Below, one piece after another: positions 13,922-33,275 of a DNA stretch of 36,161 nucleotides. The notes beneath the pieces were generated by a model. It did no database searches. It saw nothing but the letters and a program-made list of their open reading frames with translations, and was not told the origin of the DNA. Source of the stretch: a virus; IMG/VR virus record IMGVR_UViG_3300032323_001303, positions 1 through 36,161 of that record, one strand, 5' to 3'. The position numbers were made by a program, and so were the translations under genes. How positions within the stretch are numbered: position 1 is the stretch's first letter; every line of letters begins with the position of its first letter.

Positions 13922-15799
13922 CTATAGATGTAGTGATAATTTACAATTCCCACAATCCCAAATTTTACAATAACCATTTAATTTCATATTATCCGATTCT
14001 GTTAATTCGTCTTCATAATGTTTGAGTATATTTTTTAACTTATGTTTCTGAAATCTCATCCTTGAGTATCTTATACCTTCGTTTCGGGTAAAGTAGTAAA
14101 AATTAGGAGCGGTTATGGACATATCAGAAAATCCAGCCAACCGATAAACATCCCCATTTGAATATCTCCTATCAGCATAGGTCAAAATATTTTTAGGATT
14201 TTTCAACTTTATGAAATGTTTAATCAATTTTTGAAATCCTCCAATAATTGAAGTATTGAGAACACACGAAAATCTTAAAATTTCCCACTCAAAATTTTTA
14301 TCAAATCTACTTTTACCCATTGTCAATAATGACACCAATTGATCTTTGTAGTAAAGTCCTAAATTGGTAGAAGATGGACATGATCCTTGTAAATGCGTAT
14401 CAGTTAAGAACATATCTTTATCATGTTTATTCACGATCTTGATTTGGCATTTTCTGGCGTATATTCGATTATTAGATAATCCTAATTTATGAGAAATTAT
14501 TGATTCCCATATATTTCTTTTGTTTCTCCACTCGTCTTCAAATACGTGTAACAATTGAATATTATTGTCCTCACAACCTTCTGTTTTTCCTATATGATAT
14601 TTATCTGTTTTGTTTTTAGCATCGGAGTGATGATACAATCCATTAAGTTCTATTGCTAAATTGTGAGAAGGTATTAAAATGTCCAATTCCAATCCATCTA
14701 AAATATTTTTATCGTTCTTGATGAAATCAACCCCCAATGTTGAAATATATTCTCTAAGTTCTCCCTCAATTTTAGAAAGGCTACCAGCACAAGTTGGGCA
14801 TCGCTGTTCAAGATTAATTAGATTCCCCGCGCAAATAGTCCAAGCCCCATGAATAGGACAAATGACCTCCAATTTAGATTTATTATTGACATATTCTTGA
14901 TCAGGAATTATATAATCATATTTCAACTTCTTGCGAATTTCTTCAAGCGTTAGTTTCTTCTTACCGGAACATGTTAAACAACCCTGATTTTTTGTTATTA
15001 ATTGTTTGGGGGTTTTTAAAAATTCTCCATGTTTGGGGCAAATTACTATACCTTTAGTGTTACTATCCACAAAATTAAATTTTGATAGATCATATAATCC
15101 ACCATATAATTCTTCTACCTCTTGTAAAAATTGTTCTTTTGTTCTACCAATAAAATTGTTCCTATTTTTTGAGCATTTGGGACATCCATATCCCCTCATG
15201 TGATTGGCATAATTGATTTCAAAATCTCCATGTTCAGAACACATTACAACCGATTTCTCCAATTTGCCAGAGTATGTAAATTTGGAATAATCATACCTCC
15301 CACCATGAATGTTTTTAAATTTTTCTAAACATGTTGAGGAATTTTGTTGAATTTTACTATTACGATATTCCTCAGTTTTGGTATAGGATTCTTGTCCATA
15401 TTTTTCAAGGGATGTTGATTTAATTTTTTCCTTTGTTTCTTTCAATTGGAATACATTTTCAACCCCGTATTTTTCCAAATTATTATTTTTTCTAATTTCG
15501 TATGCATCCTTGGCATTTTCCATGGAACATTTTTTGCAACAATATTTTGAAAATTTCTTCTGATTGGGATCAAATTTATTATTTTGCCCACACACGCATT
15601 TAGGGTGTTGTGTGATGTCATTCAAAAAACAATACACCATTAGAGATACTGGACTTGCCAATGTCTCATCCATGGAATTTTTAATCATATTAAAATTATC
15701 TTCTCCAATCAATACTTTCAGGTTCTTATCCTTAAAATATTTCAGACTTCCTTTCCATTTTTGATCGGAATGGGTTTTGATTACGTTCTTCAGTTCCAT
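13922..15799 (-). CDS. Vsr-like (EDxHD-type) homing endonuclease with zinc-ribbon repeats
   Basis: 625 residues. Seen: an N-terminal Cys cluster (CVCGQNN ... KYCCKKCSME, residues 70-95); short repeated phrases NNLEKYGVENVFQ and STSLEKYGQESYT typical of phage endonuclease DNA-binding tandem repeats; three DUF723-like units (HGGRYDYSKFTYSG...VVMCSEHGDFEI...GCPKCS, then LYGGLYDLSKFNF...VICPKHGEF...GCLTCS, and VICPIHGAW...RCPTC); a Vsr-like nuclease domain near 345-430 (GLELDILIPSHNLAIELNGL, then LLHVFEDEWRNKR); and a C-terminal domain (HLQGSCPSS, ADRRYSNGDVYRLAGF). Such proteins are free-standing homing endonucleases, also found next to split inteins. It has its own early-type promoter and is inverted relative to the capsid operon. 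Confidence 0.85.
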   Translation of the reverse strand: MELKNVIKTHSDQKWKGSLKYFKDKNLKVLIGEDNFNMIKNSMDETLASPVSLMVYCFLNDITQHPKCVCGQNNKFDPNQKKFSKYCCKKCSMENAKDAYEIRKNNNLEKYGVENVFQLKETKEKIKSTSLEKYGQESYTKTEEYRNSKIQQNSSTCLEKFKNIHGGRYDYSKFTYSGKLEKSVVMCSEHGDFEINYANHMRGYGCPKCSKNRNNFIGRTKEQFLQEVEELYGGLYDLSKFNFVDSNTKGIVICPKHGEFLKTPKQLITKNQGCLTCSGKKKLTLEEIRKKLKYDYIIPDQEYVNNKSKLEVICPIHGAWTICAGNLINLEQRCPTCAGSLSKIEGELREYISTLGVDFIKNDKNILDGLELDILIPSHNLAIELNGLYHHSDAKNKTDKYHIGKTEGCEDNNIQLLHVFEDEWRNKRNIWESIISHKLGLSNNRIYARKCQIKIVNKHDKDMFLTDTHLQGSCPSSTNLGLYYKDQLVSLLTMGKSRFDKNFEWEILRFSCVLNTSIIGGFQKLIKHFIKLKNPKNILTYADRRYSNGDVYRLAGFSDMSITAPNFYYFTRNEGIRYSRMRFQKHKLKNILKHYEDELTESDNMKLNGYCKIWDCGNCKLSLHL

Positions 15800-15833
15800 A
15801 ATAGTATTATACTATTTAGATTGGAAATGTCAA
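15800..15833 (-). promoter_or_regulatory. early-type promoter with leaderless geometry, homing endonuclease
   Basis: Reverse strand: TTGACA (15833-15828), 16 bp, TATAAT (15811-15806), 6 bp, ATG at 15799. Both hexamers are perfect sigma70 consensus. Transcription should start at about the ATG. Confidence 0.85.
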
Positions 15834-15858
15834 CAAGTAAATTTATTTCCCTCCCCGA

Positions 15859-15866
15859 CTAAATAA
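15859..15866 (+). promoter_or_regulatory. late-type promoter motif
   Basis: CTAAATAA, 4 bp before ATG 15871; divergent from the early promoter of the homing endonuclease. Confidence 0.65.
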
Positions 15867-15870
15867 TAAC

Positions 15871-16245
15871 ATGCCTCAGATCTACACATTCTCCACAACC
15901 CTCCTCTCCGCTGTAAAGACAGGAACTCCCAACCTCGTAACCACCGCTCTATCAGCGTCAGGAGTCAACACCATCTCTCTTTCCACGAATGATGTGGGTA
16001 TTTCCTTCACACCGAATACCACACTCACGGGAACGCTCTGTTCAACCACCGTCCAAGGATCAGTCTTCCGAATTGACACCTCCTATCACCAAGCCAATAA
16101 TCAAATGGTTCTCCTCAAGAGCAATGGCAGCGGAACCATCTTCCAATACGCCTCTGGTGGTTCTGTGGGCGTTGCGCTCTCCGCTAATTACACGGACTTC
16201 ACTACCAGCGATACCCGCCGCAAATGGCATCTGGGATATCGTTAA
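15871..16245 (+). CDS. small Ser/Thr-rich virion-like protein
   Basis: 124 residues, no signal peptide. Seen: beta-rich composition dominated by Ser, Thr, Gly and Asn (TTALSASGVNTISL, SVGVALSANYTDF) and a positively charged end (DTRRKWHLGYR), as in small decoration or tail-associated proteins. It has a private late promoter and is followed by a strong terminator, forming a monocistronic late unit next to the capsid operon, which suits an abundant virion protein such as a capsid decoration protein (inference). No family recognised. Confidence 0.6.
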   Translation: MPQIYTFSTTLLSAVKTGTPNLVTTALSASGVNTISLSTNDVGISFTPNTTLTGTLCSTTVQGSVFRIDTSYHQANNQMVLLKSNGSGTIFQYASGGSVGVALSANYTDFTTSDTRRKWHLGYR

Positions 16246-16269
16246 TAATATTTGTAGGGCGACCTAATA

Positions 16270-16307
16270 AAAAAGTCAGGGATTTTTAGTCCTTGACTTT
16301 TTTTCGT
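16270..16307 (+). terminator. strong intrinsic terminator
   Basis: 13-bp stem AAAAAGTCAGGGA with TCCTTGACTTTTT (one G-U pair), loop TTTTTAG, then a T-run. Ends the 15871 unit. Confidence 0.9.
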
Positions 16308-16318
16308 TTTATGGTTTA

Positions 16319-16777
16319 ATGGAGGAAATGAACGACGACATGGATACGAAACAAGTAATAATAATAAGAAAGTTTCCGAATCTTAGGACTGGAAAATACT
16401 GTAGCCAAGTTGCCCATGCTTCCATGGCATTTTTAACAAAAAATGGTAAAGTTGTGACTGATAGCGAATTTGAAGAATATGGTTCACAATTCGCACCAAC
16501 ATTCTTCGAAAGTTACTCCCTAGATATTATAAATAACAAAGAAGAAATCAACCATTGGCTCGAAAATTCCTTCCGCAAAATCGTCTGTTATGTGGATTCA
16601 TTAGAGGAACTGGAAGAGATTCATCAAAAGGCTCTGGACGCTGGATTGATGTCCCATATGATTGAGGATAATGGCGCGACTGAATTTGGGGGTGTGAAGA
16701 CTAAGACCTGTATCGCCATTGGGCCCCATGTGGATGAGAAATTCGTCGGTATCACCGATCATCTCAAGTTGGCATGA
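16319..16777 (+). CDS. peptidyl-tRNA hydrolase, PTH2 family
   Basis: 152 residues from ATG 16319; ATG 16328 and 16340 (MDTKQVIII) are alternatives, the domain beginning near KQVIIIRKF. Seen: PTH2 landmarks: LRTGKYCSQVAHASMAF near residue 22 (the K..x..Q..HA helix), KIVCYVDSLEELEEIHQKAL near 88, and the C-terminal EDNGATEFGGVKTKTCIAIGP (split here as EDNGATEF and KTKTCIAIGP) with the T-x-x-A-I-G-P block and a final HLKL. The enzyme releases tRNA from dropped-off peptidyl-tRNA. PTH2 is the archaeal/eukaryotic type, uncommon in bacteria but carried by some large phages. It complements the tRNA cluster and the nucleotidyltransferase in this window. No clear promoter was found in the 40 bp before it. 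Confidence 0.85.
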   Translation: MEEMNDDMDTKQVIIIRKFPNLRTGKYCSQVAHASMAFLTKNGKVVTDSEFEEYGSQFAPTFFESYSLDIINNKEEINHWLENSFRKIVCYVDSLEELEEIHQKALDAGLMSHMIEDNGATEFGGVKTKTCIAIGPHVDEKFVGITDHLKLA

Positions 16778-16783
16778 TAAATA
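16776..16783 (+). promoter_or_regulatory. late-type promoter motif, baseplate hub N-part
   Basis: GATAAATA, 5 bp before the GTG at 16789; it overlaps the stop (TGA) of the peptidyl-tRNA hydrolase gene. Confidence 0.6.
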
Positions 16784-16788
16784 CTTAG

Positions 16789-17514
16789 GTGTTTATCCGT
16801 GGATCAGGGGCAGGTAATGAGTTTCGTAGGAATGATCAATCATTCTATCGTGGAATTGTAGTCCGCAATAATGATCCCCTCAAGCTCAATCGGGTAAAGG
16901 TTTATATTCCCGAATTATCAAATCAGCCCTATGATGAATGGTTCGGCAAATTTGATGACATTAATTTAAAATATCCGGGAATCAACAACGAGACGGATAA
17001 CTGGAAGGATACCAAGATCTTTCAAGAGATCGCCAAAAACATTCCATGGGCGGAACAGATGGCTCCAATATTTGGAGAGTCTTCCAATGCCCGTTATTAT
17101 GCGGAGGATGAGATTTCCACGTTATCTGATTGTAATTATGTGGAAGGATTTGAGGAGAACAATACAAAAAGTATTTCCCTATCATCCGGCACATTTGCTC
17201 CCGCATTCCTATATGAAAATGAGGATACGGTTCTTGGGGATGCTTTCTCAAACCCATTGGGTAATTTCTCCGTGAAATGCAATCCCTATTCATTCTCCTA
17301 CAAACCCGTGAAACATGTCAACAAGGGTAAGGGACTATTCTCCATTCCCGAAGTGGGGGCAAAGGTATGGGTGTTCCATTACCAAGGAGACTTGAATTTT
17401 CCCGTGTATTTCGGAGTGTCACAGGATCAGAGGACGAATCTCCTGATACAGAATGCGGATAACAAGGAGAAAATATCTCCGCATTATCCTAGTGATTTTG
17501 AAAATCCTCTTTAG
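16789..17514 (+). CDS. 5: baseplate hub gp5-like, N-terminal OB-fold part (split gene)
   Basis: 241 residues from a GTG start. Seen: the OB-fold of gp5/VgrG-type hubs: FYRGIVVRNNDPLKLNRVKV near residue 19, IPELSNQPYDEW, IPWAEQMAPIFG near 85, and a second half LFSIPEVGAKVWVFHYQGD then FPVYFG near 190-215. It ends with YPSDFENPL and a TAG. In related phages the same chain continues into K-Y-x-N-R-x-V-L-N-x-x-G-G, which here begins a separate gene at 17739. No lysozyme domain is visible, unlike T4 gp5. The part would cap the central spike. The last 26 bp overlap the inserted reverse-strand gene. Confidence 0.8.
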   Translation: MFIRGSGAGNEFRRNDQSFYRGIVVRNNDPLKLNRVKVYIPELSNQPYDEWFGKFDDINLKYPGINNETDNWKDTKIFQEIAKNIPWAEQMAPIFGESSNARYYAEDEISTLSDCNYVEGFEENNTKSISLSSGTFAPAFLYENEDTVLGDAFSNPLGNFSVKCNPYSFSYKPVKHVNKGKGLFSIPEVGAKVWVFHYQGDLNFPVYFGVSQDQRTNLLIQNADNKEKISPHYPSDFENPL

Positions 17515-17677
17515 GAATTGATGATGTATCTCTAGTATCAAGAAGTTTATACCATTTTCCATCTTCGCCTAAAAATGGTTCAAAATTACGTGAGGGTATT
17601 TTTTCAAATAATTCAAGTTCAAAATTATTAACTATCTTACAAGCTTCTTTATACTTATCATAATCTTCTTGATTCAT
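17489..17677 (-). CDS. small inserted protein of unknown function inside the split hub locus
   Basis: 62 residues (MNQEDYDKYKEACKIV, then FELELFEKIPSRNFEPF and GEDGKWYKLLDTRD), acidic, no recognised family, no nuclease motif. It stands on the reverse strand between the two hub genes, with its stop inside the 3' end of the N-part. Real-gene support: a TTGACA promoter with the same 16-bp spacer and 6-bp-to-ATG geometry as other early genes. Being early and opposite to the late hub genes, it looks like a later arrival (inference). Confidence 0.65.
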   Translation of the reverse strand: MNQEDYDKYKEACKIVNNFELELFEKIPSRNFEPFLGEDGKWYKLLDTRDTSSIPKEDFQNH

Positions 17678-17711
17678 AAAAATAATTTAACATTTAAATC
17701 TTATTTGTCAA
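17678..17711 (-). promoter_or_regulatory. early-type promoter with leaderless geometry
   Basis: Reverse strand: TTGACA (17711-17706), 16 bp, TAAATT (17689-17684), 6 bp, ATG 17677. Confidence 0.7.
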
Positions 17712-17725
17712 TAGAAACGTCACTA

Positions 17726-17733
17726 TTAAATAA
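17726..17733 (+). promoter_or_regulatory. late-type promoter motif, baseplate hub C-part
   Basis: TTAAATAA, 5 bp before ATG 17739; it lets the C-part be expressed independently of the N-part. Confidence 0.65.
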
Positions 17734-17738
17734 TTTTT

Positions 17739-19301
17739 ATGGGAAAATATAAAAATAGGGTTGTTTTAAACCAACGGGGGGGATCACTCACGATCAACAA
17801 TGAGACTGATCAAGAGAATATCAGTATCTCCCAACGCTCTGGTAGCAACATCCGCTTAACCAATGTCGTCAACACTGAGCTTGCCACGAACAACAAGCAG
17901 ACAACGGTTGTCAATGATGAGTTCAAAACAGTGGGAAATGATTCATCGGAATTTGTAGCCAAGAACAGAACCACTCGCACGGGAGAGGATTCCTATGAAT
18001 TGGATGGATTTGTATCAGATGATGAGATCAATGCTTATAATGAGTGGAAGGAAAGCTGGAAAGAAATTGCCCTACTCAATGCTGAATTCAAGATCAAACG
18101 GGGAGGAACATCCTTACCCAATGGGACAACCACTGAGCCAGAAGGTTCACGCAAGGACAATCCGGTGATAGGTTCAAAAGTGTTCACAGTCCAGAATGAT
18201 TTTAATGGTTATACGGGAATTCCCATTCGTTATAGTAATTTGGACGAGGTGACAATCTATGCTAAGGTTCCCGACAGAGGAAAGACCAAACCAGCATCAG
18301 AGAAAGATGTTAAAAAGGAAGATGTGGAAGCTTCAAATGCTCCTGCTGTTGCAGAATTCGGTGCTGATAAAAGTGCGGCAACTGAAGGAGGGGAATGGCA
18401 AATCAATCAGGAAGCCATGGAGATTGATCAAAAGATTCTGGATAAAACCGATGAATTATTTCCCATTGAAAAACGAATGGGAAATGGTGGCGATAAAATA
18501 AAATTTATCAAAAGAAATAAATTTGAACAAGTTGGGGCGGCTTTCAATGACTTTCCATCTGTTCGCATTGACACCAAGGGTAGAAGCCAACCCATTGAAA
18601 TGTGTGTGGGAAAAACCGGAGCTTTCAAACAACATGATTATGTTTCTCTTGTGGAGGAAGTGGATAATACATCCGCATTTCCCGGAGGAGATGATACCAA
18701 ATATGTAGGAAATCGTTATGTCCGTAATGTCGGATCGGGAGGAATCTCATTCAAGACCACGGGAGTAGTGGAGCAATCTGGAACGATCCTTAAACAAGGA
18801 TTCAAGAAAGTCAATATCAATGCGTCCCATGGTATTCATATTGGATCTGAAGATCATATTGATATTCAATCGGTTAAGACAATTACTCTCAGAACCAATC
18901 GACAGGTCTATGTGGAGTCCTCTTTGGGTGTTCGCAATAATCTGATTGTGGGGGGAGGCTTGTATGTGGAAGGGGAAACTTATCTACATCATGTCACAGC
19001 CCCTCTGGAGGTGCAACAGACAGAAGACACGGTGGTTCTTGGTAAGTTCGCCACGGAAACGAATCGTCGTCTTGTAATCGGGGAATGTAACGTGGGGGGT
19101 GCTTGGTATCCCGTATATGCTCTGGCGAATGATAATCTCATTTTGACATATCCCCATTCTCACCACTTTAATAACATTCCCCTGAGAATGATGAAATCAA
19201 ATGAAAAATTGAGGGAGAAGGCGCAATCGGAGAATATCAATAAACATAATACGATTGTGCAATCTCTCCCGCAATTACATGAGAGGAAGACCGCTCAGTG
19301 A
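17739..19301 (+). CDS. 5: baseplate hub/spike gp5-like, C-terminal part (split gene)
   Basis: 520 residues. Seen: starts MGKYKNRVVLNQRGGSL, the segment that in intact gp5-like hubs directly follows the OB-fold; then ENISISQRSGSNIRL and FKTVGNDSSEF; a middle region with KAPDRGK-like linkers and charged helices (260-250); and a C-terminal part (about 330-450) with short alternating hydrophobic strands and Gly turns (GHIDIQSVKTITLRTN-type, GIHIGSEDHIDIQ, LIVGGGLYVEGETYLH), consistent with the triple-stranded beta-helix of the cell-puncturing spike. PHSHHFNNIPL near 480 is His-rich, as in spike tips that bind metal. The gene ends with 27 bp of antisense overlap with the methyltransferase gene. 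Confidence 0.8.
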   Translation: MGKYKNRVVLNQRGGSLTINNETDQENISISQRSGSNIRLTNVVNTELATNNKQTTVVNDEFKTVGNDSSEFVAKNRTTRTGEDSYELDGFVSDDEINAYNEWKESWKEIALLNAEFKIKRGGTSLPNGTTTEPEGSRKDNPVIGSKVFTVQNDFNGYTGIPIRYSNLDEVTIYAKVPDRGKTKPASEKDVKKEDVEASNAPAVAEFGADKSAATEGGEWQINQEAMEIDQKILDKTDELFPIEKRMGNGGDKIKFIKRNKFEQVGAAFNDFPSVRIDTKGRSQPIEMCVGKTGAFKQHDYVSLVEEVDNTSAFPGGDDTKYVGNRYVRNVGSGGISFKTTGVVEQSGTILKQGFKKVNINASHGIHIGSEDHIDIQSVKTITLRTNRQVYVESSLGVRNNLIVGGGLYVEGETYLHHVTAPLEVQQTEDTVVLGKFATETNRRLVIGECNVGGAWYPVYALANDNLILTYPHSHHFNNIPLRMMKSNEKLREKAQSENINKHNTIVQSLPQLHERKTAQ

Positions 19302-20234
19302 TTTGAAGAAATGGACAATTACATCCACCGTCCACCCATTACCAATAGCCTTTTTAGCGAGATTGTCTGATATTTCTCTAGTATATCCAACGGGTAGTGT
19401 CTGAGCTTTTTCACATTCTTCTCTGTTGATCTTTCGCCATCTCAAATTACCATCTTCAAGATATACAAAATTTGAACATCCGCAACCAGCCGGATTGTAT
19501 GTATTGGAAGCGGTCAAACAATTTATCTTTTGATCCCCACCCTTGATGTTTAAAAGTATTCTCCGCTTAGAATTATCACTTTCAAATCCTCCAAAATCCA
19601 TATCAAGAAGTTGATCTTTATATTGTGTGATTTCATTCTTTGTCAATATTCTTCCAGATACAATATCTTGAGCATAAAGATTTTTTGTTGGGATTTCTGA
19701 TGCAATGGGTATATTTGTCCAATATAACCGTTTTCTCATTTGTGAGCTAATTACCTGACTATCTATATGAATAGGTGACACTCCCAAAGTCTCTGTTATA
19801 ATGTCCTCCCATTTTTTGGCCATTTTGACATTTTCTAAAAAGAAATACTTCGGTTTAATTTCTTTGAGGATGCGAACATATTCCCAAAACAGATATGATT
19901 GACCTTTGAAATTAAATCCTTCATTTTTCAATTCCAAATATTGAAGTAAAGAAGTTATTTCCAAATTATCAAGTGTTGTCATACCATTTCTTTTACCTGC
20001 AAATGAAAAGGATTGACAGGGTGATCCTCCAATCAGCAATTCAATTTTCGGCAAATCCTTGGCGAAAACTTCCGTCACAGATCCCAATTGGATAGTATCA
20101 GGATAATTGCTTTGTGTTACCTTGATGGCATGTTTATCAATTTCCGATGCAAAATACTTATCATATTTTACACCAGCACGATTCAGGGCGATTTGCCCCG
20201 AACTGATCCCATCAAAAAGAGAAAGAACGTTCAT
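19275..20234 (-). CDS. DNA (cytosine-5)-methyltransferase
   Basis: 319 residues. Transfers a methyl group from S-adenosylmethionine to C5 of cytosine. Seen: motif I LSLFDGISSGQIAL (residues 4-17), motif IV GGSPCQSFSFAG with catalytic C73, motif VI FFLENVKM (ENV 134-136), motif VIII QMRKRLYW near 165, and motif X AIGNGWTVDVIVHFF at the end. The target-recognition region between VIII and IX is short. The SSGQIAL variant of motif I resembles DNMT3-like phage enzymes. No restriction endonuclease is adjacent, so it is an orphan enzyme that may protect phage DNA. It has its own early-type promoter and lies directly downstream of clpP on the same strand. Confidence 0.92.
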   Translation of the reverse strand: MNVLSLFDGISSGQIALNRAGVKYDKYFASEIDKHAIKVTQSNYPDTIQLGSVTEVFAKDLPKIELLIGGSPCQSFSFAGKRNGMTTLDNLEITSLLQYLELKNEGFNFKGQSYLFWEYVRILKEIKPKYFFLENVKMAKKWEDIITETLGVSPIHIDSQVISSQMRKRLYWTNIPIASEIPTKNLYAQDIVSGRILTKNEITQYKDQLLDMDFGGFESDNSKRRILLNIKGGDQKINCLTASNTYNPAGCGCSNFVYLEDGNLRWRKINREECEKAQTLPVGYTREISDNLAKKAIGNGWTVDVIVHFFKSLSGLPLM

Positions 20235-20268
20235 GGATGAATCATACCAGACAAAATAATTTTGTCAA
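20235..20268 (-). promoter_or_regulatory. early-type promoter with leaderless geometry, methyltransferase
   Basis: Reverse strand: TTGACA (20268-20263), 16 bp, TATGAT (20246-20241), 6 bp, ATG 20234. The promoter begins 2 bp after the clpP stop codon. Confidence 0.8.
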
Positions 20269-20269
20269 C

Positions 20270-24024: not shown

Positions 24025-24052
24025 ATTGTATCACCCTCTTGAAAATTGTCAA
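24025..24052 (-). promoter_or_regulatory. early-type promoter of the nrd operon
   Basis: Reverse strand: TTGACA (24052-24047), 16 bp, TACAAT (24030-24025). ATG 24011 follows 13 bp later, leaving a leader of only a few bases. It lies inside the N-terminal codons of the longer nrdB frame. Confidence 0.8.
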
Positions 24053-24518: not shown

Positions 24519-24782
24519 ATGGATTCTCTCACAAACATGATGGAAATTTATTCCGATATTATTCAGGAAGCTCGTTCTTCACATGGAGACAAGGCCGCAA
24601 CTCAAAATCTGTTGAAATATGCCATGAAAAAAGGTTTGGTCAATGTGGAGGATAAAAAGAATGGATCATTGGTGAAATCCCTTGTGGATGATACACAATT
24701 TCTGATTCATCGGGGAGAGAGCGATTATCATTATCTGCGTAGGTATATCCAGAAATTGGAGAAACTTGGGGTTGCGGCTTGA
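24519..24782 (+). CDS. hypothetical late protein
   Basis: 87 residues, nearly all helical (MMEIYSDIIQEARSS; LLKYAMKKGLVNVED; SDYHYLRRYIQKLEKLG). No family recognised. Own late-type motif. Its TGA stop is embedded in the TTGACA of the early promoter for the next gene, so early and late units are packed with a 3-bp overlap of functions. Confidence 0.6.
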   Translation: MDSLTNMMEIYSDIIQEARSSHGDKAATQNLLKYAMKKGLVNVEDKKNGSLVKSLVDDTQFLIHRGESDYHYLRRYIQKLEKLGVAA

Positions 24783-24812
24783 CACGAATAAAAACTAGCG
24801 TATCATGGGAAC
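24779..24812 (+). promoter_or_regulatory. early-type promoter with leaderless geometry
   Basis: TTGACA (24779-24784), 16 bp, TATCAT (24801-24806), 6 bp, ATG 24813. Confidence 0.8.
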
Positions 24813-25378: not shown

Positions 25379-25406
25379 TTGACAAATCAGATTAGTATGC
25401 TTAAAT
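25379..25406 (+). promoter_or_regulatory. early-type promoter of the tRNA cluster
   Basis: TTGACA (25379-25384), 16 bp, TTAAAT (25401-25406). The expected start lies 2-4 bp before the first tRNA gene (25416). Confidence 0.65.
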
Positions 25407-25872: not shown

Positions 25873-25874
25873 AC

Positions 25875-26376: not shown

Positions 26377-26384
26377 ATTTTCAC

Positions 26385-26470: not shown

Positions 26471-26478
26471 CTTTCAAT

Positions 26479-26554
26479 TCCTCTATAACATAATTGGTTA
26501 ATGTAGCGGACTTTTAATCCGTTGATCCAGATTCAAGTTCTGGTGGAGGAACCA
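26479..26554 (+). tRNA. tRNA-Lys (UUU)
   Basis: Loop CTTTTAA on stem GCGGA/TCCGT; acceptor TCCTCTA/TGGAGGA; discriminator A, encoded CCA; 76 nt. Last tRNA of the cluster. Confidence 0.9.
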
Positions 26555-26563
26555 TTTTCATTA

Positions 26564-26597
26564 TTGACAAACTCCCCCAATCTGTTACAATCATCCC
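26564..26597 (+). promoter_or_regulatory. early-type promoter with leaderless geometry
   Basis: TTGACA (26564-26569), 16 bp, TACAAT (26586-26591), 6 bp, ATG 26598. It begins 10 bp after the last tRNA. Confidence 0.85.
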
Positions 26598-27266
26598 ATG
26601 ACATACGATGAAGTAATGGAGAAGAACGGTCGTCATCTGGATTGGGATTTGGAAATCCATGACAAGCCATATCAGGTGATCAAATATGATGGCTACAATA
26701 ATGAGGATTATGTTTGTTATGAAATCAAGCCCCATTATAAAAGAATAATGGATTATTTTGTTCCTGATGGCAACATTGAAGTTTTCAGTTGTTATGGTGT
26801 CCGTGGAAATGCCCCAACATGGGAAATAAAACAATCCAAGGTCAAAACATTCAAAACGAAATGGGGAGAGACTGATGTTCGGTTTTCCTGTTTAACCACC
26901 GTATATAGAAATGGTGATCCATTCTTTGAATTCGGGGGTGATGAGGATTATGCATATCATAAGGCCAAATCCCAACTTGTAGAAATTTGGGACGGCCCGA
27001 TCAGTTTCCATTCCCGTTGGTGGAGAGACGAATTGATCGACAGGGAAATCAAATATGATGGTCAACCTGCAATCATCAAGCGTGTCAATTCATCCCCATT
27101 CTCCATGTGGATTGAGCCTGTGAATGATAAGTTCAATCCACCCCCATCATGGGATAATGATTCAAATGATATTTGTAATAGAGAATCATGGGATGAGGAG
27201 TATGCGGATGGTCTGATCGTTGAGAGTGTCCTTAACCCAAGTATTGATTGGTTTCCAAAGGACTAA
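26598..27266 (+). CDS. hypothetical early protein
   Basis: 222 residues, acidic, rich in Trp, Tyr, Asp and Pro. Seen: no signal, membrane segment or coiled coil; beta-leaning segments (KPYQVIKYDGYNNEDYVCYE; VRFSCLTTVYRNGDPFF) and a tail IDWFPKD. No family recognised. Expressed from a leaderless early promoter directly after the tRNA cluster; its 3' end overlaps the endolysin end by 4 bp on the opposite strand. Confidence 0.7.
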   Translation: MTYDEVMEKNGRHLDWDLEIHDKPYQVIKYDGYNNEDYVCYEIKPHYKRIMDYFVPDGNIEVFSCYGVRGNAPTWEIKQSKVKTFKTKWGETDVRFSCLTTVYRNGDPFFEFGGDEDYAYHKAKSQLVEIWDGPISFHSRWWRDELIDREIKYDGQPAIIKRVNSSPFSMWIEPVNDKFNPPPSWDNDSNDICNRESWDEEYADGLIVESVLNPSIDWFPKD

Positions 27267-27832
27267 TCCTTGATCCAATCCTTCACCAATCGCACTGTGT
27301 TGATGTGCCTACGCTTGGAGAACACACCTTGACCATCCCTATCAGCGGCAGAGCCAACGGCAGCATTACCACTGGTGTTCGCCTCAACGGTCACTAGGTA
27401 ACTTCCTGATTTCTCCTTTACGAGTCCCGTGTGTCCAATCCTTTTGAGATTGTTGAAATAAATGCCAAACGTTTCCGCACCTTTGATCGTGGTTGATGTA
27501 GGGGACACACCCCCTTTGACATGATCGGGACTCCATGCTGATTTTGGGTATGGATTCTTACTACCCAATGCTTCTTTACCAACCCAATAATTATAGGCCG
27601 CGCAATAGGGATAACCACCTTTTGGATTCAATCCAACGGAAGCAATATATTTTTCAACATCTCCATCATTCTTTCCCGTTTTCTCGACAATCCCCACTTG
27701 GGTCATGGCTTTGTCGATCACCTTTTGGCGATCAGATTTAGCCACCACGGGAGGTTTGACATCCGGTGTATTATCTTTGGGAACTCCCGCCATGGCGAGA
27801 ATCCCCACAAAAGCTAGAATTGTAAATTTCAT
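27263..27832 (-). CDS. endolysin, CHAP/NlpC-type cysteine peptidase, with N-terminal signal or SAR segment
   Basis: 189 residues from ATG 27832, whose ATGA overlaps the stop of the holin-like gene; a frame from 27928 is not preferred. Seen: hydrophobic, Gly/Ala-rich N-terminus FTILAFVGILAMAGV (either a Sec signal or a signal-arrest-release segment); domain AMTQVGIVEKTGKNDG then VEKYIASVGLNP; catalytic Cys77 in GYPYCAAYNYWVG; His134 in KRIGHTGLVKE; a strand YLVTVEANTSGNAA. This matches CHAP-type amidase/endopeptidases that cut peptidoglycan. Last gene of a reverse-strand late cassette: spanin-like lipoprotein, holin-like protein, endolysin. Confidence 0.82.
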   Translation of the reverse strand: MKFTILAFVGILAMAGVPKDNTPDVKPPVVAKSDRQKVIDKAMTQVGIVEKTGKNDGDVEKYIASVGLNPKGGYPYCAAYNYWVGKEALGSKNPYPKSAWSPDHVKGGVSPTSTTIKGAETFGIYFNNLKRIGHTGLVKEKSGSYLVTVEANTSGNAAVGSAADRDGQGVFSKRRHINTVRLVKDWIKD

Positions 27833-28263
27833 AGGGCAAGAGCCAATGCGGTGATGAATCCTATAAACAGGATAGACCAAGTGGTGAGAGTGGCAACAAT
27901 CCGAACAGTCGGAGAAACCTTTTTCCAATCACGCTTAAAGGAAACCTTATCAGATTCCTTAACCTCTGGATCTCCCTCATCTTTTCCATCAATATAATCA
28001 TCAAGTTCCGTCCATGCGAAATTGATGACAGTGAATGCCACGATGACAGAAACAACGACACCAACAATGGAAAGGACTAGGAAATGGAGGATACCTTCAT
28101 CCAGACCACCAACGGCCAGACCAGCACCTTGCATCCATCCGATGACCTTGAAGAAGAGAATCAATGCTAATGTTCCAAGAGCGAGTTCCCCTTTGATCGT
28201 CCAGAGATACTTCAAACGAGAAGCGATTGCGAATTTATCCCAATATTTTTTAAAATTATTCAT
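27829..28263 (-). CDS. holin-like three-segment membrane protein
   Basis: 144 residues. Seen: three hydrophobic segments at about 26-45 (ELALGTLALILFFKVIGWM), 60-82 (FLVLSIVGVVVSVIVAF) and 121-143 (IVATLTTWSILFIGFITA), with a charged stretch between the second and third (DDYIDGKDEGDPEVKESDK). No catalytic motif. Position immediately before the endolysin with a 4-bp overlap makes a holin or pinholin the best guess; the sequence itself is not diagnostic. Own late-type motif 7 bp upstream that overlaps the stop of the preceding spanin-like gene. Confidence 0.6.
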   Translation of the reverse strand: MNNFKKYWDKFAIASRLKYLWTIKGELALGTLALILFFKVIGWMQGAGLAVGGLDEGILHFLVLSIVGVVVSVIVAFTVINFAWTELDDYIDGKDEGDPEVKESDKVSFKRDWKKVSPTVRIVATLTTWSILFIGFITALALAL

Positions 28264-28270
28264 AACACTA

Positions 28271-28279
28271 TTATTTAAT
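28271..28279 (-). promoter_or_regulatory. late-type promoter motif, holin-like gene
   Basis: Reverse strand ATTAAATAA, 7 bp before ATG 28263; shares bases with the TGA of the upstream gene. Confidence 0.5.
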
Positions 28280-28968
28280 CACCAGCGTAATCTTGCGACG
28301 GGATTCACACTCATCCACACGTTCTTGACGATTAGAAGCAGGACATAAATTCCGATGGCATACCAAAACAATTTCTTGTATACCATGGCATCTGCCTTTT
28401 CCTTGATCAATTTTTCCTTCTCTTTGGAAACATCGACAACTTCCTTGTTATTTTTATCCAGATTTTCAGCCAGAAATATGAAACCTTCTCTCAATTGATT
28501 GGCTTCAAATTCTTTTGCCATAAGTTTGTCCATAGTATCCTTGGAATTTTTTCTAGCTTCTTCCAAAAGATTCTTTTGAATATTATTATTTTTTGTCAAT
28601 TCTTCGGTTTGTTTTTCAAGGAAAAGGTTTCTAGTCTCCACTTTTTTCAGGGTGTTGATAAGATTGATCGCTTCAATCTCAGAGATGAGTTGTTTCGCAA
28701 CTGCCTTTTCCTTGATCTTCTCAGCTTCCAGCAATGCTTGGGTGGTATCTTCCATCTGTTCCTTTATGGCTTCCGTCTGATTTTTCAGACCCTCCCCGAT
28801 TTTTGTATTCTCTTCCAGACTTCCATCAATGTTTTTTTGTGTCTTCTCAAGGGCTGGTTTTGCGCTCTCCTGAACGATGGGAGCCTTGGGAATATTCACA
28901 GGAGGAGTGATATCCTTGGAACAAGCCACAAAGAGAAAGGGGGTCAGGAGTATGAAAAGATGTTTCAT
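28279..28968 (-). CDS. lipoprotein with coiled coil and C-terminal membrane segment (unimolecular-spanin-like)
   Basis: 229 residues from ATG 28968 (MKHLFILL), chosen because a late-type motif lies 4 bp upstream. Seen: a type II signal MKHLFILLTPFLFVAC with lipobox Cys at about residue 16, then SKDITPP; a long charged coiled coil (30-190: ALLEAEKIKEKAVAKQ, EEARKNSKDTMDKL, KEKEKLIKEKAD-like); and a single C-terminal membrane segment LFWYAIGIYVLLLIV followed by KNVWMSVNPVARLRW. Outer-membrane lipid at one end and inner-membrane segment at the other is the topology of u-spanins such as T1 gp11, which fuse the two membranes at lysis. T1-type u-spanins are mostly beta, so this would be a coiled-coil version. 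Alternative: a tail-tube or generic envelope lipoprotein. Confidence 0.6.
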   Translation of the reverse strand: MKHLFILLTPFLFVACSKDITPPVNIPKAPIVQESAKPALEKTQKNIDGSLEENTKIGEGLKNQTEAIKEQMEDTTQALLEAEKIKEKAVAKQLISEIEAINLINTLKKVETRNLFLEKQTEELTKNNNIQKNLLEEARKNSKDTMDKLMAKEFEANQLREGFIFLAENLDKNNKEVVDVSKEKEKLIKEKADAMVYKKLFWYAIGIYVLLLIVKNVWMSVNPVARLRW

Positions 28969-28972
28969 GCCT

Positions 28973-28980
28973 TTATTTAG
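28973..28980 (-). promoter_or_regulatory. late-type promoter motif, lysis cassette
   Basis: Reverse strand CTAAATAA, 4 bp before ATG 28968; lies 4 bp from the TTGACA of the divergent early promoter. Confidence 0.65.
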
Positions 28981-28984
28981 CGGG

Positions 28985-29012
28985 TTGACATCCTTAAAAA
29001 TTAGGATACAAT
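28985..29012 (+). promoter_or_regulatory. early-type promoter of the LemA-like operon
   Basis: TTGACA (28985-28990), 16 bp, TACAAT (29007-29012); the only early promoter here with a normal leader, about 35 nt to ATG 29054. Confidence 0.8.
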
Positions 29013-29053
29013 GGAGGGACAATCAATAAAAACTAGATCACAATACAAAAACA

Positions 29054-29611
29054 ATGAGCAAAGCACTAATAGCAATGTCGGTCTTGGGAGGTATCATCCT
29101 CCTCGGAGTAATCCTTCTTTTCTCTGTAATCGGTAACTTCAACAGTTACACGAAGATTGAGAATCTAGCCAAAGCAACCCAAACGGATAACAAGAACATC
29201 CTAGATAATACCCGAAAGGCGATTCGGGAAGCTGCCAATGTTTCCGACAAGGAAGTGGAAGCCCTCACCAATATCATCACTGGATATGCCGAATCTCGCG
29301 GAGGTAATACCGCTGGAGAGGGGCAGCTTGTCACGGTGGGTATGGTGACGGAAGCAGTTCCAAGTATTCAGAGCATTGAAACCTTGAAGAATCTACAAAA
29401 CATCGTGGTGGCTGGTCGAAAGGATTGGCAATTCGCCCAAACTCGATTGGCGGAAATCAAACGTCAAGGGGATGATATGTTGGGTATGGTTCCATCTGGA
29501 ATGATCCTCAAAATGTTTGGAAAGAAGCCAATTGAGATTGTCATCGTGACTTCCAAGGAAACTGAAGAGAATTTCGCGACGGGGGAAGATAACTCTGAAT
29601 GGGTGAAATAA
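29054..29611 (+). CDS. LemA-like membrane protein
   Basis: 185 residues. Seen: one N-terminal membrane segment (LIAMSVLGGIILLGVILLF) followed by NSYTKIENLAKATQTDNKN, a helical bundle (NTRKAIREAANVSDKEVEAL), and AGRKDWQFAQTRLAEIKRQG ending ILKMFGKKP. The layout of membrane anchor, helices and a final amphipathic helix matches LemA-like proteins that occur in many large phages; in those the following gene is also a membrane protein, as here. Function unknown; LemA was named from a Listeria antigen. It starts an early operon (29054-30685), opposite to and facing away from the lysis cassette. Candidates: envelope remodelling, lysis timing or superinfection exclusion. Confidence 0.7.
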   Translation: MSKALIAMSVLGGIILLGVILLFSVIGNFNSYTKIENLAKATQTDNKNILDNTRKAIREAANVSDKEVEALTNIITGYAESRGGNTAGEGQLVTVGMVTEAVPSIQSIETLKNLQNIVVAGRKDWQFAQTRLAEIKRQGDDMLGMVPSGMILKMFGKKPIEIVIVTSKETEENFATGEDNSEWVK

Positions 29612-30685
29612 ATGACAATAGGATACTGGATATTTGTTCTCATGATCATTCCCGTAATCGCGGGAGTGGTTTCATGGGTGAAGTTTCATGAGATTGATTT
29701 GAAGGAATCAGCCATGAGTGTCGGAGCAGCATTGCTTCTGATTTCTGCAACTCTTCTGATCTCAAAATGTTCATCAAGGATGGACACGGAGACTCTTTCG
29801 GGAAGGATTACATCGGTTCATCACACACCCGAATGGGAAGCCAAATGGAGAGAGCAGCAGACATATACCACAACCGTCAATGGAAAATCGGTGACACGCA
29901 CCAGATGGGTAACAAGAAGGGAAACACATTCCCCAAAATGGTGGGCCGAAACGACTGTTGGAGATATATCAATGAGTCAGGGTTACTTCAATCACATTGG
30001 ACAAAAATATGGAATTGAGAAAGAAATGGGATATCGTCCAAATTTCAATTCAGGGGACAGATATGATTATTATTCTCATGTCAATGATGATCCAGAATTT
30101 TGCGATTATCCCGTCACCCAAACAGCCCATTGGCAAAATCCCCTGAAAAATTCCAAGGGTCTTCATAGCTTCAAGAAAATCAATGAAGAAGAGGCTTTGA
30201 AAATGGGATTACCCAATTATCCCCAAAACGATTCATTCAAATCTTCCCGATTGATTGATGGGGTTCCCATTGATATTTGGAATTGGGATAAGCTGAATGC
30301 TGCATTGGGAGCTAATCATAAAGTAAATCTAATCATGGTAAATCTCGGGGGAGGTATTGAAAATGCGAAGAATCTTCAAGCTTATTGGAAGAATGGTAAG
30401 AAGAATGATATTGTAATGTGCTATGGAGATGGATGGTCATATGTATTTGGGTGGTCGGAAACGGAACTTGTCAAATTGAATCTCCAAACCATCTTACTTG
30501 ACAATCCTGTGAATGATGGTATCATTCCTCTGATCAAGGAAGAAATTAGAAAGAATTTCAAACCCCACAAATGGACAATGTATGAAGAGCAGGAATTCAT
30601 CGTTCCCACTTGGACGGTGGTAACGGCATTCATTCTGATGATTCTTTCACAGATTGGACTTTATTACACATTCCACAAAAACTAG
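29612..30685 (+). CDS. conserved phage membrane protein paired with LemA-like gene
   Basis: 357 residues; ATG directly follows the LemA-like stop. Seen: two N-terminal membrane segments (YWIFVLMIIPVIAGVVSWV; AMSVGAALLLISATLLI), a large extracytoplasmic domain (60-330) with motifs LSGRITSVHHTPEWEAKW, THSPKWWAETTVGDI and HWQNPLKNSKGL, and one C-terminal segment (VVTAFILMILSQIGLYY). The His- and Trp-rich motif after the second segment is a landmark of a membrane-protein family found beside LemA-like genes in other large phages. No enzymatic motif recognised. Probably forms a complex with the LemA-like protein in the inner membrane (inference). Confidence 0.65.
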   Translation: MTIGYWIFVLMIIPVIAGVVSWVKFHEIDLKESAMSVGAALLLISATLLISKCSSRMDTETLSGRITSVHHTPEWEAKWREQQTYTTTVNGKSVTRTRWVTRRETHSPKWWAETTVGDISMSQGYFNHIGQKYGIEKEMGYRPNFNSGDRYDYYSHVNDDPEFCDYPVTQTAHWQNPLKNSKGLHSFKKINEEEALKMGLPNYPQNDSFKSSRLIDGVPIDIWNWDKLNAALGANHKVNLIMVNLGGGIENAKNLQAYWKNGKKNDIVMCYGDGWSYVFGWSETELVKLNLQTILLDNPVNDGIIPLIKEEIRKNFKPHKWTMYEEQEFIVPTWTVVTAFILMILSQIGLYYTFHKN

Positions 30686-30693
30686 AATAAATA
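30686..30693 (+). promoter_or_regulatory. late-type promoter motif
   Basis: AATAAATA, 6 bp before ATG 30700. Confidence 0.5.
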
Positions 30694-30699
30694 GAAACC

Positions 30700-31104
30700 A
30701 TGTTTAAAATAATCACATTACTAATAGCATTGACCTTGACTCTGAATGCCAAGGATTACGATAACCCTGATGAATTTACCGCTAAAACCGCAAGAGTAAC
30801 ATACTATTGGCCGGGAAGTGGGGGTCAAGTGGGATATCAAACAGCTACGGGAAAGCGGGCTATTTGTGGTCAATCTGCCGCCGTTGATCCTAGAATCATC
30901 CCTTATGGTTCAGAAATTCATATCCCGAAGATGGATATGGTTGTAAAAGCCGTGGACACCGGATCGGCGGTGAAAGCCAGAACCGCATCTAAAAAGCTTG
31001 GAAGAAATGATATTGTGATTGATATATTCTGTAAGAGTAGGGCGGATGCGATGCGGAGGATTAAAAATTATCCAATGTTTATGAAAATTTACGTGAAGAA
31101 ATAA
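30700..31104 (+). CDS. secreted 3D-domain (RlpA/MltA-type barrel) protein
   Basis: 134 residues. Seen: signal peptide MFKIITLLIALTLTLNA, then a 3D domain: ARVTYYWPGSGG, YQTATGKRAICGQSAAVDP, IIPYGSEIHIP, VKAVDTGSAVKA and GRNDIVIDIFC, with the three conserved Asp. This fold occurs in RlpA, Rpf/YuiC and MltA proteins and either cuts or binds peptidoglycan glycan strands. With the CHAP endolysin nearby it may be a second wall enzyme or a periplasmic wall-binding factor. Located 14 bp after the membrane-protein gene, with its own late-type motif. Confidence 0.75.
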   Translation: MFKIITLLIALTLTLNAKDYDNPDEFTAKTARVTYYWPGSGGQVGYQTATGKRAICGQSAAVDPRIIPYGSEIHIPKMDMVVKAVDTGSAVKARTASKKLGRNDIVIDIFCKSRADAMRRIKNYPMFMKIYVKK

Positions 31105-31107
31105 TAT

Positions 31108-31752
31108 ATGAAAGCAGAAATATTGAAATACTTTGGAGATGATTTAATGATTTGTAATGTAGCCCGCGTTTCCTATAACAAGGAAAGTGAAGAAGTTGGT
31201 CATAAAGAAGAACGACTTCTCAAATACTTAGCGGAACACAAACACACCACACCATTTCGACACCCCCAATTACAATTCAGAGTTGAATGTCCAATCTTCG
31301 TGGAAAGGCAATTGTTCACACATCAAATTGGATGGGCGAGAAATAGTATTTCGGGAAGATATGTTGACTTCTCTGATACATATTGGCTACCGGAACAACT
31401 TAGGATGCAGTCAATGGATAGTAAGCAGGGAAGCTCTGGACTTGTCCCGAAACCTCAAAGTGATTTTTTTATTGGAGAGATGAAAAAATTGGTAGATCAA
31501 TCTGCGGCTCTTTATAAGGAAATGTCTGAATATGGGGTTGCGAAAGAACAATGTAGAATCCATTTACCATTGGCACTTGAAACAAAATTCATCTGGACTG
31601 GTAGTTTTCACGCCTTTGTTCATCTTTGCAACCTTCGACTCAAATCAGACGCACAAGAAGAGACTAGACTTTTAGTTGGTGAGATGCTACAATTGGTTAA
31701 GAACCTTGAAGGGGAACCATTCAAACATTCTTTGGAAGCATTCAATCTATAA
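31108..31752 (+). CDS. thyX: flavin-dependent thymidylate synthase (ThyX-like)
   Basis: 214 residues. Makes dTMP from dUMP with FAD, folate and NADPH. Seen: EHKHTTPFRHPQLQFRVECP near residue 43, FVERQLFTHQIGWARNSISG then RY (65-85), and a C-terminal half RIHLPLALETKFIWTGSF, HAFVHLCNLRLKSDAQEETR typical of ThyX. Odd point: the ThyX signature RHR-x7-S is here THQ (71-73) followed by eight residues before S82, so two of the three canonical residues are changed and the spacing is one longer. The downstream Arg residues that grip dUMP look intact. Three bp after the 3D-domain gene; pairs functionally with the nrd operon. Confidence 0.85.
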   Translation: MKAEILKYFGDDLMICNVARVSYNKESEEVGHKEERLLKYLAEHKHTTPFRHPQLQFRVECPIFVERQLFTHQIGWARNSISGRYVDFSDTYWLPEQLRMQSMDSKQGSSGLVPKPQSDFFIGEMKKLVDQSAALYKEMSEYGVAKEQCRIHLPLALETKFIWTGSFHAFVHLCNLRLKSDAQEETRLLVGEMLQLVKNLEGEPFKHSLEAFNL

Positions 31753-31756
31753 TCAT

Positions 31757-32224
31757 ATGGGATCAATATTCAACAGCCGAAAAATACTACATGGTCTTCC
31801 AAAAGAAGGTCAGAAAATCAAATTCACTAAACCCACCAAATTCGCATTACATACCAATGTGATTGAGGATGAAAAATTGCTGGAACTTGGAAAGGAATAC
31901 ACCGTCAAGAAGACGGAACTCAATTCATCATCCACCTATGTTTATCTGGAGGAATTTTGGGACGATGATATGGACATGTATCGGAATAACCAAAAAGCAT
32001 TCAGTATGCATTCTTTTGAGTGGGAATTGCCGGAAATCAATCTGGATGAATTGATCGGGTTGGGACAAACTGATATGTGTATGTTGTCCAATACATATAA
32101 AGTGGGAGTGGAACTGAATGGGGAAACACTTTATAAGGGAGATCCAGTCTTGGTGATAGAAGTGTCCGATCCTTCTTACAGGGGACATATCACTAAAGCA
32201 TTTTGGAAAAAAGATACTAAATAA
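31757..32224 (+). CDS. hypothetical protein
   Basis: 155 residues from ATG 31757, 4 bp after thyX, so probably cotranslated with it. Seen: mixed alpha/beta with KPTKFALHTNVIEDEKLLEL, an acidic patch FWDDDMDMYRNNQ, and a C-terminal VLVIEVSDPSYRGHITKAF. No signal, membrane segment or family recognised. Its stop lies within the late-type motif of the next gene. Confidence 0.6.
   Translation: MGSIFNSRKILHGLPKEGQKIKFTKPTKFALHTNVIEDEKLLELGKEYTVKKTELNSSSTYVYLEEFWDDDMDMYRNNQKAFSMHSFEWELPEINLDELIGLGQTDMCMLSNTYKVGVELNGETLYKGDPVLVIEVSDPSYRGHITKAFWKKDTK
32217..32224 (+). promoter_or_regulatory. late-type promoter motif
   Basis: CTAAATAA, 4 bp before ATG 32229; its TAA is the stop codon of the gene before. 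Confidence 0.6.
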
Positions 32225-32228
32225 AAAT

Positions 32229-32426
32229 ATGATAAAAATACTGAACAATAATAGCGTAAAATTGTGTTGCAATGGGCAAGGTTGTCCAATCGTGACTGAG
32301 TTGGCAAATGGAATGGTGGAAATCATTGATGACGATGGTAACAAGATCGTTGTCAAGAAAGAGGAAGCTCTTCTCATTTCCGATGGAGTTAAAACAATTG
32401 ATGAGAAAAAGTTAATCCTTGGATAA
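32229..32426 (+). CDS. small conserved phage protein with CCNGQGCP motif
   Basis: 65 residues. Seen: KLCCNGQGCPIVTEL, then VEIIDDDGNKIVVKKEEALL, a compact beta-rich layout with two Cys pairs in the first half that could bind zinc. Small proteins with a CNG-x-GCP motif recur in T4-like phages, function unknown. Overlaps the next gene by 8 bp. Confidence 0.6.
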   Translation: MIKILNNNSVKLCCNGQGCPIVTELANGMVEIIDDDGNKIVVKKEEALLISDGVKTIDEKKLILG

Positions 32427-32691
32427 TCTGTGGTTCCATACCATTTCAATGATCGGACTTTGTTTCATTCTGAAATACGGTTCCATCTTGAATTTCATCA
32501 GAAAACCATTAACAAAAATTAAATTCTTCGAGGAACTTTTCAAATGCGCTTTATGTCTAGGATTTTGGGTGGGATGTTTTTTTGGCTTGTTCTTTCATGG
32601 AGCATTCTTATTATGGGGGTTTTATTCGTGTGCCGTCTGTTGGGGTGCTGATCATCTGATTATGTTAGCTCAAAAGAAATTGTATCCATGA
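32419..32691 (+). CDS. small membrane protein with C-x2-C motifs
   Basis: 90 residues from TTG 32419, overlapping the previous gene; ATG 32449 (MIGLCFILK) is an alternative. Seen: hydrophobic N-terminal segment (ISMIGLCFILKYG), a Cys pair FKCALCLGFWVG, a second hydrophobic stretch (FFGLFFHGAFLLWGFYS) and CAVCWGADHLIM. The CxLCxGFW pattern resembles DUF1360-type small membrane proteins of phages. Likely two to three membrane segments. Function unknown. Confidence 0.6.
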   Translation: MDNLWFHTISMIGLCFILKYGSILNFIRKPLTKIKFFEELFKCALCLGFWVGCFFGLFFHGAFLLWGFYSCAVCWGADHLIMLAQKKLYP

Positions 32692-32694
32692 AAA

Positions 32695-32823
32695 TTGAGA
32701 GGTAAAACATTGGCTTGCTGGTGTAAGGATAATAACTGCCATGTCCAAGTGATGGTGGATTGGCTCAATAGGGATACAAAATTGGATGAGTTGTTCGGAA
32801 TATCAGATCAAAGCGATCTATAA
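32695..32823 (+). pseudogene. fragment resembling C-terminus of a DUF4326-type protein
   Basis: 42 residues if read from TTG 32695, in frame with and directly after the stop of the membrane-protein gene. Seen: RGKTLACWCKDNNCHVQVMV then DWLN, matching the C-terminal signature of DUF4326-type proteins (GK-x-LACWC-x-CH-x-DVL-x-x-x-N). The usual N-terminal half (about 70-80 residues with a GNPF motif) is absent. Either a remnant or a very short gene. It overlaps the next gene's start in another frame. Confidence 0.45.
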
Positions 32824-32977
32824 AAAAAGATTGATGAATGCCAAGGGATATGTTATATTCTGGAAGGAACATGTGAAGAAGTATCCCGACAAGCTGGCAT
32901 TGACAATGTTGAAAGTTGCGGAGACGACACTGGAAAAAATAGAAAAAGAGATTGATAAACTTGACAATAACGAATAA
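32786..32977 (+). CDS. hypothetical small protein
   Basis: 63 residues from ATG 32786, basic N-terminal half (YQIKAIYKKRLMNAKGY) and charged C-terminal helix (TLEKIEKEIDKLDNN). No family recognised and no own promoter motif. Overlaps the DUF4326-like fragment by 38 bp in another frame and holds the TTGACA of the next early promoter in its final codons. Confidence 0.5.
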   Translation: MSCSEYQIKAIYKKRLMNAKGYVIFWKEHVKKYPDKLALTMLKVAETTLEKIEKEIDKLDNNE

Positions 32978-32993
32978 TGATGTAGAATTAATT
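32961..32993 (+). promoter_or_regulatory. early-type promoter with leaderless geometry
   Basis: TTGACA (32961-32966), 16 bp, TAGAAT (32983-32988), 5 bp, ATG 32994. Embedded in the end of the previous gene. Confidence 0.75.
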
Positions 32994-33275
32994 ATGAAAT
33001 TGGATAAACTATTAGACACGACACCAGAACAGTTAGCAAAGCTTCAATTTGATGAGTTGAAGCGAGAGGCAGTGGAAACTTTGAGAAATGTTGCGGAACT
33101 TCTGGATAATGAAAAATTTAAAGAGATTGAAAAGATGATTGAGTATAGTCCTGCGGGGGATGGCATGGGCTGTGATAATCAATACATCACATTCAATCAT
33201 ATTCATAAAAGTATGGATGATATTGGGGATGTATTAAACAAACTTGTGGAATTGAAAAAATTGATTAAAAAATAA
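32994..33275 (+). CDS. hypothetical early protein, helical
   Basis: 93 residues from ATG 32994; an upstream TTG at 32952 would lie across the promoter and is rejected. Seen: helical segments KLDKLLDTTPEQLAKLQFDE, ETLRNVAELLDNEKFKEIEK and DIGDVLNKLVELKKLI, with a Gly-rich turn AGDGMGCDNQYITF. Opens a chain of closely packed early genes running to 34387. Confidence 0.6.
   Translation: MKLDKLLDTTPEQLAKLQFDELKREAVETLRNVAELLDNEKFKEIEKMIEYSPAGDGMGCDNQYITFNHIHKSMDDIGDVLNKLVELKKLIKK

Follow-up and report, generated by a model that had tools for sequence, protein, structure and literature searches.

Why should promoters in a T4-like phage lie directly against the start codons of the genes they serve? 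The question is raised by IMG/VR virus record IMGVR_UViG_3300032323_001303, which was analysed over its entire length of 36,161 nt (the 'window'), and in which a first-pass annotation had described six genes, on both strands, preceded by TTGACA, 16 bp, a −10 hexamer and 5 or 6 bp to the ATG. We consider it highly probable from the sequence patterns described below that, in this uncultured T4-like phage, many transcription units open with a gene that is expressed as a leaderless mRNA from three promoter classes locked to the ATG. One class is of sigma70 type, one carries the core of the T4 late promoter, and the third, of middle type, is apparently undescribed so far.

By its gene content and capsid relationships, the window is a member of a large uncultured T4-like clade in IMG/VR. 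It encodes T4-type portal, major capsid protein, prohead protease and neck protein (phrog_213, 138, 207, 211) and a T4-type head-tail adaptor, together with nrdA/nrdB, ThyX, tRNA nucleotidyltransferase and seven tRNAs. Its major capsid protein is 25-33% identical to those of T4 and cyanophages, about 33% being the maximum to any phage record, and its relatives in viral contigs number in the hundreds, three of these contigs being 202-207 kb long. Nine contigs related through this protein were read first and two further contigs later. Genes were called as greedy open reading frames (ORFs), and the lists contain spurious ORFs and operon-internal genes.

Each of the six TTGACA-N16-TANNNT-N5/6-ATG sites was found where it had been placed (Table 1), with a gap of 6 between the −10 hexamer and the ATG at five sites and of 5 at 32994+. 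The geometry is far commoner than chance: 200 dinucleotide shuffles of the window gave a mean of 0.015 sites and a maximum of 1, and the reversed pattern gave none in the window. The uniform spacer is equally real, since 9 of the 12 TTGACA-N14..20-TANNNT pairs in the window have exactly 16 bp; nrdB, the tRNA cluster and the 28985+ operon keep it with longer gaps (13, 8 and 41, respectively). In the first spacer test, covering the window and nine relatives, 16 bp outnumbered every other length in all ten contigs, for example with 30 pairs versus 1-7 in the 207-kb contig G001 and 29 versus 1-8 in G002. Among N16 pairs, the distance to the first ORF-opening ATG peaks at 6 (21 sites, with 36 at 5-8), and pairs with other spacers (15 and 17 left out) gave no site at a distance of 4-8. 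TG at −15/−14 is also seen at early sites.

The fused arrangement is not confined to the 'early' genes to which it had been assigned. Promoters of late and middle type are fused as well, in greater numbers, and the stage names (early, middle, late) themselves are inferred from homology with T4. Nor do the six genes form a compact early module, as the window holds mainly structural, nucleotide-metabolism and tRNA genes. The label 'LemA-like' given to 29054-29611 found no Pfam match.

Among fused elements TAAATA, known as the core of T4 late promoters, is the most frequent. The distance from TAAATA to the ATG of an ORF peaks at exactly 5, with 256 sites versus about 12 for a control motif at the same distance. 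In three contigs of about 200 kb, TAAATAN5ATG occurs 48, 47 and 54 times, versus 3, 5 and 2 for the reversed control. Outside the clade, observed and control counts are 10/5 in T4, 5/3 in S-PM2, 3/3 in Syn9, 6/6 in P-SSM2 and 2/2 in KVP40; the motif is moderately raised in the pelagiphage HTVC008M (14 versus 4), which keeps Shine-Dalgarno (SD) motifs, and in S-CRM01 (5 versus 0). Among 80 loci the gap-5 peak persists to 58-63% capsid identity, although diluted there. TAAATA stands upstream of 29-37% of genes that have a gap of at least 6 or a divergent neighbor, versus 7% of abutting genes, and the base preceding it in the clade is often C. Genes fused to it match structural families (portal, terminase, protease, head closure, tail tube), and homologues of the late sigma factor gp55 (phrog_234) are present in relatives G001, G002, G003, G005 and G011; none was found within the window. 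Overlapping TTGACA/TAAATA dual promoters were considered as a general rule and rejected: they occur in a few orthologues, and late sites as a whole have no clear excess of TTGACA at the corresponding position.

The third class emerged from scanning positions upstream of the ATG without a prior motif. It has the form box-N3-TANNNT-N6-ATG, the box ending 15 nt before the ATG and 3 nt before TANNNT. Its position is fixed across relatives although its sequence differs: AAAACTA in G001, G004, G005 and the window, AACACTA in G003 and AAAACCG in G002. Counts of box-N3-TANNNT and of box-N15-ATG are 74 and 79 in G001, 52 and 44 in G003, and 65 and 44 in G002 for the respective boxes; the window has only two or three AAAACTA sites, and T4, S-PM2 and HTVC008M have no box register of this kind. 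Taking the A of the ATG as +1, A at −11 and T at −7 each occur in 98-100% of class-3 sites and a pyrimidine at −1 in 100%, and these sites have no −35 consensus. The genes match rIIA/B, RNA ligase, helicase, primase and UvsX families.

What the gaps themselves imply follows from promoter geometry. A sigma70 −10 hexamer occupies −12 to −7, so that with a gap of 6 the A of the ATG becomes +1. In T4, the late TATA box starts at −13 (PMC2988020) and so ends at −6, and a gap of 5 thus puts +1 on the same A. For two promoter types that differ in geometry, the observed gap is exactly the one needed. A pyrimidine at −1, invariant in class 3, is present at 92% of early and 86% of late sites, versus 57-62% of unfused genes. 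In no gene class of the clade do SD-like motifs rise more than slightly over shuffled background, whereas they reach 42% versus 11.5% in T4 and 47% versus 15% of non-fused genes in HTVC008M; SD use is slightly higher in more distant relatives (12% versus 5%). A TANNNT-like −10 about 12 bp before the start codon and no SD motif define TA-led leaderless genes, and the clade shows this arrangement; TANNNT at that distance is the accepted sign of bacterial leaderless genes (PMC3160421; PMC12340547). Clade-wide geometry, exact gaps, A−11, T−7 and the −1 pyrimidine, and near-absent SD motifs strongly support the proposal that transcription would begin at the start codon, in a wider set of genes than the early ones. 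Phage-wide leaderless transcription is very likely on these grounds.

Could the AT-rich elements instead be translation-initiation signals, substituting for SD within a leader? Phages without SD motifs, and the A-rich sequence common before the ATG of unfused genes too, speak for such signals, but we regard this explanation as very unlikely. Promoter hallmarks stand in exact register (TTGACA at N16, TG at −15/−14, A−11, T−7, the −1 pyrimidine). Abutting genes mostly lack either element, the box occurring at 1 of 362 in the four genomes where class 3 is common, and in those genomes box and TAAATA never coincide at a gene (the window has one case, at 30700). This intergenic bias and the class-specific gene functions are as expected of promoters, not of ribosome signals. 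Moreover, the TTGACA-N16-box-TANNNT arrangement recurs ahead of tRNA genes and, at a distance of 41 nt, ahead of an ORF. The register of the elements is thus mutual rather than set by the ATG.

Start codons are predictions, and real promoters could in principle precede ordinary leaders if the true start codons lay downstream of the fused ATGs. We hold this to be extremely improbable: it would leave 275 ATGs at exactly one distance without explanation, and SD motifs were not found. For three of the six early genes (15799-, 26598+ and 32994+), orthologues align from residue 1, so that protein similarity starts at the fused ATG. Several orthologues of 15799- also carry ATG-fused promoter motifs, in some cases with TTGACA upstream, and the G001 orthologue of 26598+ (61% amino acid identity) retains TTGACA-N16-TAAATT-N6-ATG. 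The fused ATG at 28968- likewise gives a lipoprotein-like signal sequence; for this gene (28279-28968), the start of the longest ORF (29022, TTG) is likely wrong.

Several observations weigh against leaderless transcription as a strict rule. First, some sites have gaps of 7-9, corresponding to leaders of 1-4 nt, and late sites with gaps of 7-8 show a pyrimidine-purine step at the predicted +1 that would give leaders of 2-3 nt. With loose start-site choice, transcripts could thus carry minimal leaders of 1-6 nt instead of being leaderless, a reading that we find unlikely, as the modal gaps (5 for late, 6 for sigma70-type and class-3 sites) put +1 on the A and the pyrimidine at −1 is strongest there. 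Second, a fused promoter stands at only about 35-54% of called genes, among which are the spurious and operon-internal calls mentioned above. Third, in G001 tRNA-Met and tRNA-Arg (L089:19643-19717 and L089:19738-19814) begin 0 nt after box-N3-TAGAAT, and +1 would fall inside the tRNA given a start 6-7 nt downstream. Finally, a leader precedes the major capsid gene, whose expression is surely high, and the rule is therefore not universal. This also made the gene unsuitable as a test of promoter conservation. The leader (12330-12395; loci L007-L023) contains a conserved ATAGAAAG-like stretch, and the window also has a hairpin, AGGGATAACAATCCCT, upstream; in relatives at greater distance, capsid leaders frequently have AAAGGAAA or AAGGAGA instead.

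Table 1. Promoter elements located in the window, grouped by class, with their distance to the start of the gene served.
Element	Coordinates	Strand	Distance to start	Gene or remark
TTGACA-N16-TATAAT	15806..15833	-	6 nt before ATG 15799	gene 13922-15799
TTGACA-N16-TAAATT	17684..17711	-	6 nt before ATG 17677	62-aa ORF
TTGACA-N16-TATGAT	20241..20268	-	6 nt before ATG 20234	C5 cytosine methylase
TTGACA-N16-TATCAT	24779..24806	+	6 nt before ATG 24813	AAAACTA box also at 24791-24797
TTGACA-N16-TACAAT	26564..26591	+	6 nt before ATG 26598	
TTGACA-N16-TAGAAT	32961..32988	+	5 nt before ATG 32994	
TTGACA-N16-TACAAT	24025..24052	-	13 nt before in-frame ATG	inside 5' end of longest nrdB ORF
TTGACA-N16-TTAAAT	25379..25406	+	8 nt before tRNA (25415)	tRNA-Met
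TTGACA-N16-TACAAT with AAAAATTAG box	28985..29012	+	41 nt before ATG 29054	true leader about 35 nt
AAAACTA (30678-30684)-N3-TAAATA (30688-30693)	30678..30693	+	6 nt before ATG 30700	
TAAATA	328..333	+	5 nt before ATG 339	portal
TAAATA	2780..2785	-	5 nt before ATG 2774	
TAAATA	4284..4289	-	6 nt before ATG 4277	divergent from 4311 gene
TAAATA	4300..4305	+	5 nt before ATG 4311	head-tail adaptor Ad2
TAAATA	5934..5939	+	6 nt before ATG 5946	1086 aa
TAAATA	10355..10360	+	6 nt before ATG 10367	prohead protease
TAAATA	11039..11044	+	5 nt before ATG 11050	
TAAATA	11446..11451	+	5 nt before ATG 11457	
TAAATA	15860..15865	+	5 nt before ATG 15871	back to back with - strand promoter 15806-15833
TAAATA	17727..17732	+	6 nt before ATG 17739	
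TAAATA	28974..28979	-	5 nt before ATG 28968	start gives MKHLFILLTPFLFVACS, lipoprotein-like N terminus
TAAATA	32218..32223	+	5 nt before ATG 32229	
TAAATA	36047..36052	-	5 nt before ATG 36041	tRNA nucleotidyltransferase

Some neighboring features of the window deserve mention. The divergent genes at 4277 and 4311 have 33 bp between their ATGs and a late-type promoter each, a compaction that a leaderless design would permit. The 1086-aa structural protein had no match among phage records. An HNH/homing endonuclease ORF (9445-10365) overlaps the gene that precedes the one for the prohead protease.

The scheme that we infer for start sites, timing, mode of translation and the box-reading factor builds on the geometry, its conservation across the clade, the division of the classes by gene function, the lack of SD motifs and the gp55 homologues of relatives. 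Each of the three promoter classes would set +1 on or beside the A of the ATG. A host sigma70-type holoenzyme would read TTGACA-N16-(TGn)TANNNT-N6-ATG, and a gp55-type late sigma factor of the phage would read TAAATA-N5-ATG at structural genes. At replication and rII-type genes, a putative factor together with a −10-reading holoenzyme would recognize the lineage-specific box at −22 to −16 ahead of TANNNT-N6-ATG. Translation of the leaderless mRNAs would start through binding of the 5'-terminal AUG rather than SD pairing, and downstream genes of operons would depend on coupling or on initiation independent of SD. No phage-encoded ribosomal protein S21 that could aid SD-less translation was found. 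At the level of the clade we lean towards a plan shared by a whole, ecologically common group of T4-like phages, in which early, middle and late promoters share +1 on the A of the AUG, leaderless mRNA is the default, and the box of a new middle-promoter class, adjacent to the −10, has diverged between lineages along with a putative phage factor.

How does this compare with known systems? In T4, the box of MotA-dependent middle promoters lies near −30. The third class resembles these promoters in combining a phage-specific box with a −10, without −35 consensus, at rII, helicase, primase and UvsX-type genes; it differs in that the box lies at −22 to −16 beside the −10, varies in sequence between relatives and is fused to the ATG. 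A MotA-type consensus (TGCTT-type, near −30) was not found in G001-G004. The late class shares with gp55-dependent T4 late promoters (TATAAATA) the core motif at structural genes, and gp55 homologues occur in clade relatives. However, the excess of TAAATA-N5-ATG in T4 and marine cyanophages is at most about twofold, T4 has SD motifs, and the clade motif is ATG-fused. TA-led genes of Actinobacteria and Deinococcus-Thermus share TANNNT, but are cellular and have one promoter type versus three phage classes.

Leaderless expression across a phage, which the first-pass annotation did not know to be described as an early-gene rule in a T4-like phage, is not without precedent elsewhere: most middle and late mRNAs of the Thermus thermophilus phage phiYS40, also a large lytic phage, were reported as leaderless (PMC3594737), and P23-45 has middle and late promoters of the extended −10 class (PMC7403470). 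Both are non-T4-like and infect hosts of a phylum for which leaderless genes are nothing unusual; unlike them, the present clade has a T4-type late promoter, a box-dependent class and TTGACA-N16 promoters. For T4-like phages, the supposed novelty stands to the extent that no report of leaderless mRNAs, or of the third promoter class, was found in the open-access literature, outside which most subscription papers lie. The Far-T4 phages (Roux et al. 2015; PMC4360716) are similarly uncultured, widespread and T4-like with T4 structural genes, and promoters are not mentioned in that paper. In capsid protein score, RM378 is no nearer to the window than S-PM2 or HTVC008M are.

The usual promoter type of Bacteroidetes is not known to be TTGACA/TANNNT. 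Published host predictions for Far-T4 relatives are partly Bacteroidetes. A search for the host through major capsid proteins in genome contigs gave two contigs of gut metagenome-assembled genomes (46-50% identity) and two marine ones (about 30%), which were rejected as probably misbinned and in which the N5 peak is absent.

Should the proposed scheme hold, leaderless expression in lytic phages, known from phiYS40, would extend to a regulatory cascade of T4 type, and on a much larger scale. It would suggest a host with ribosomes that accept leaderless messages, a clue for host identification, and would explain how 33 bp can suffice between two divergent genes. Across hundreds of uncultured genomes, start codons, promoters and temporal class would be readable from the sequence by itself. 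The middle box, which varies by lineage, offers a ready-made series in which to look for the factor recognizing it.

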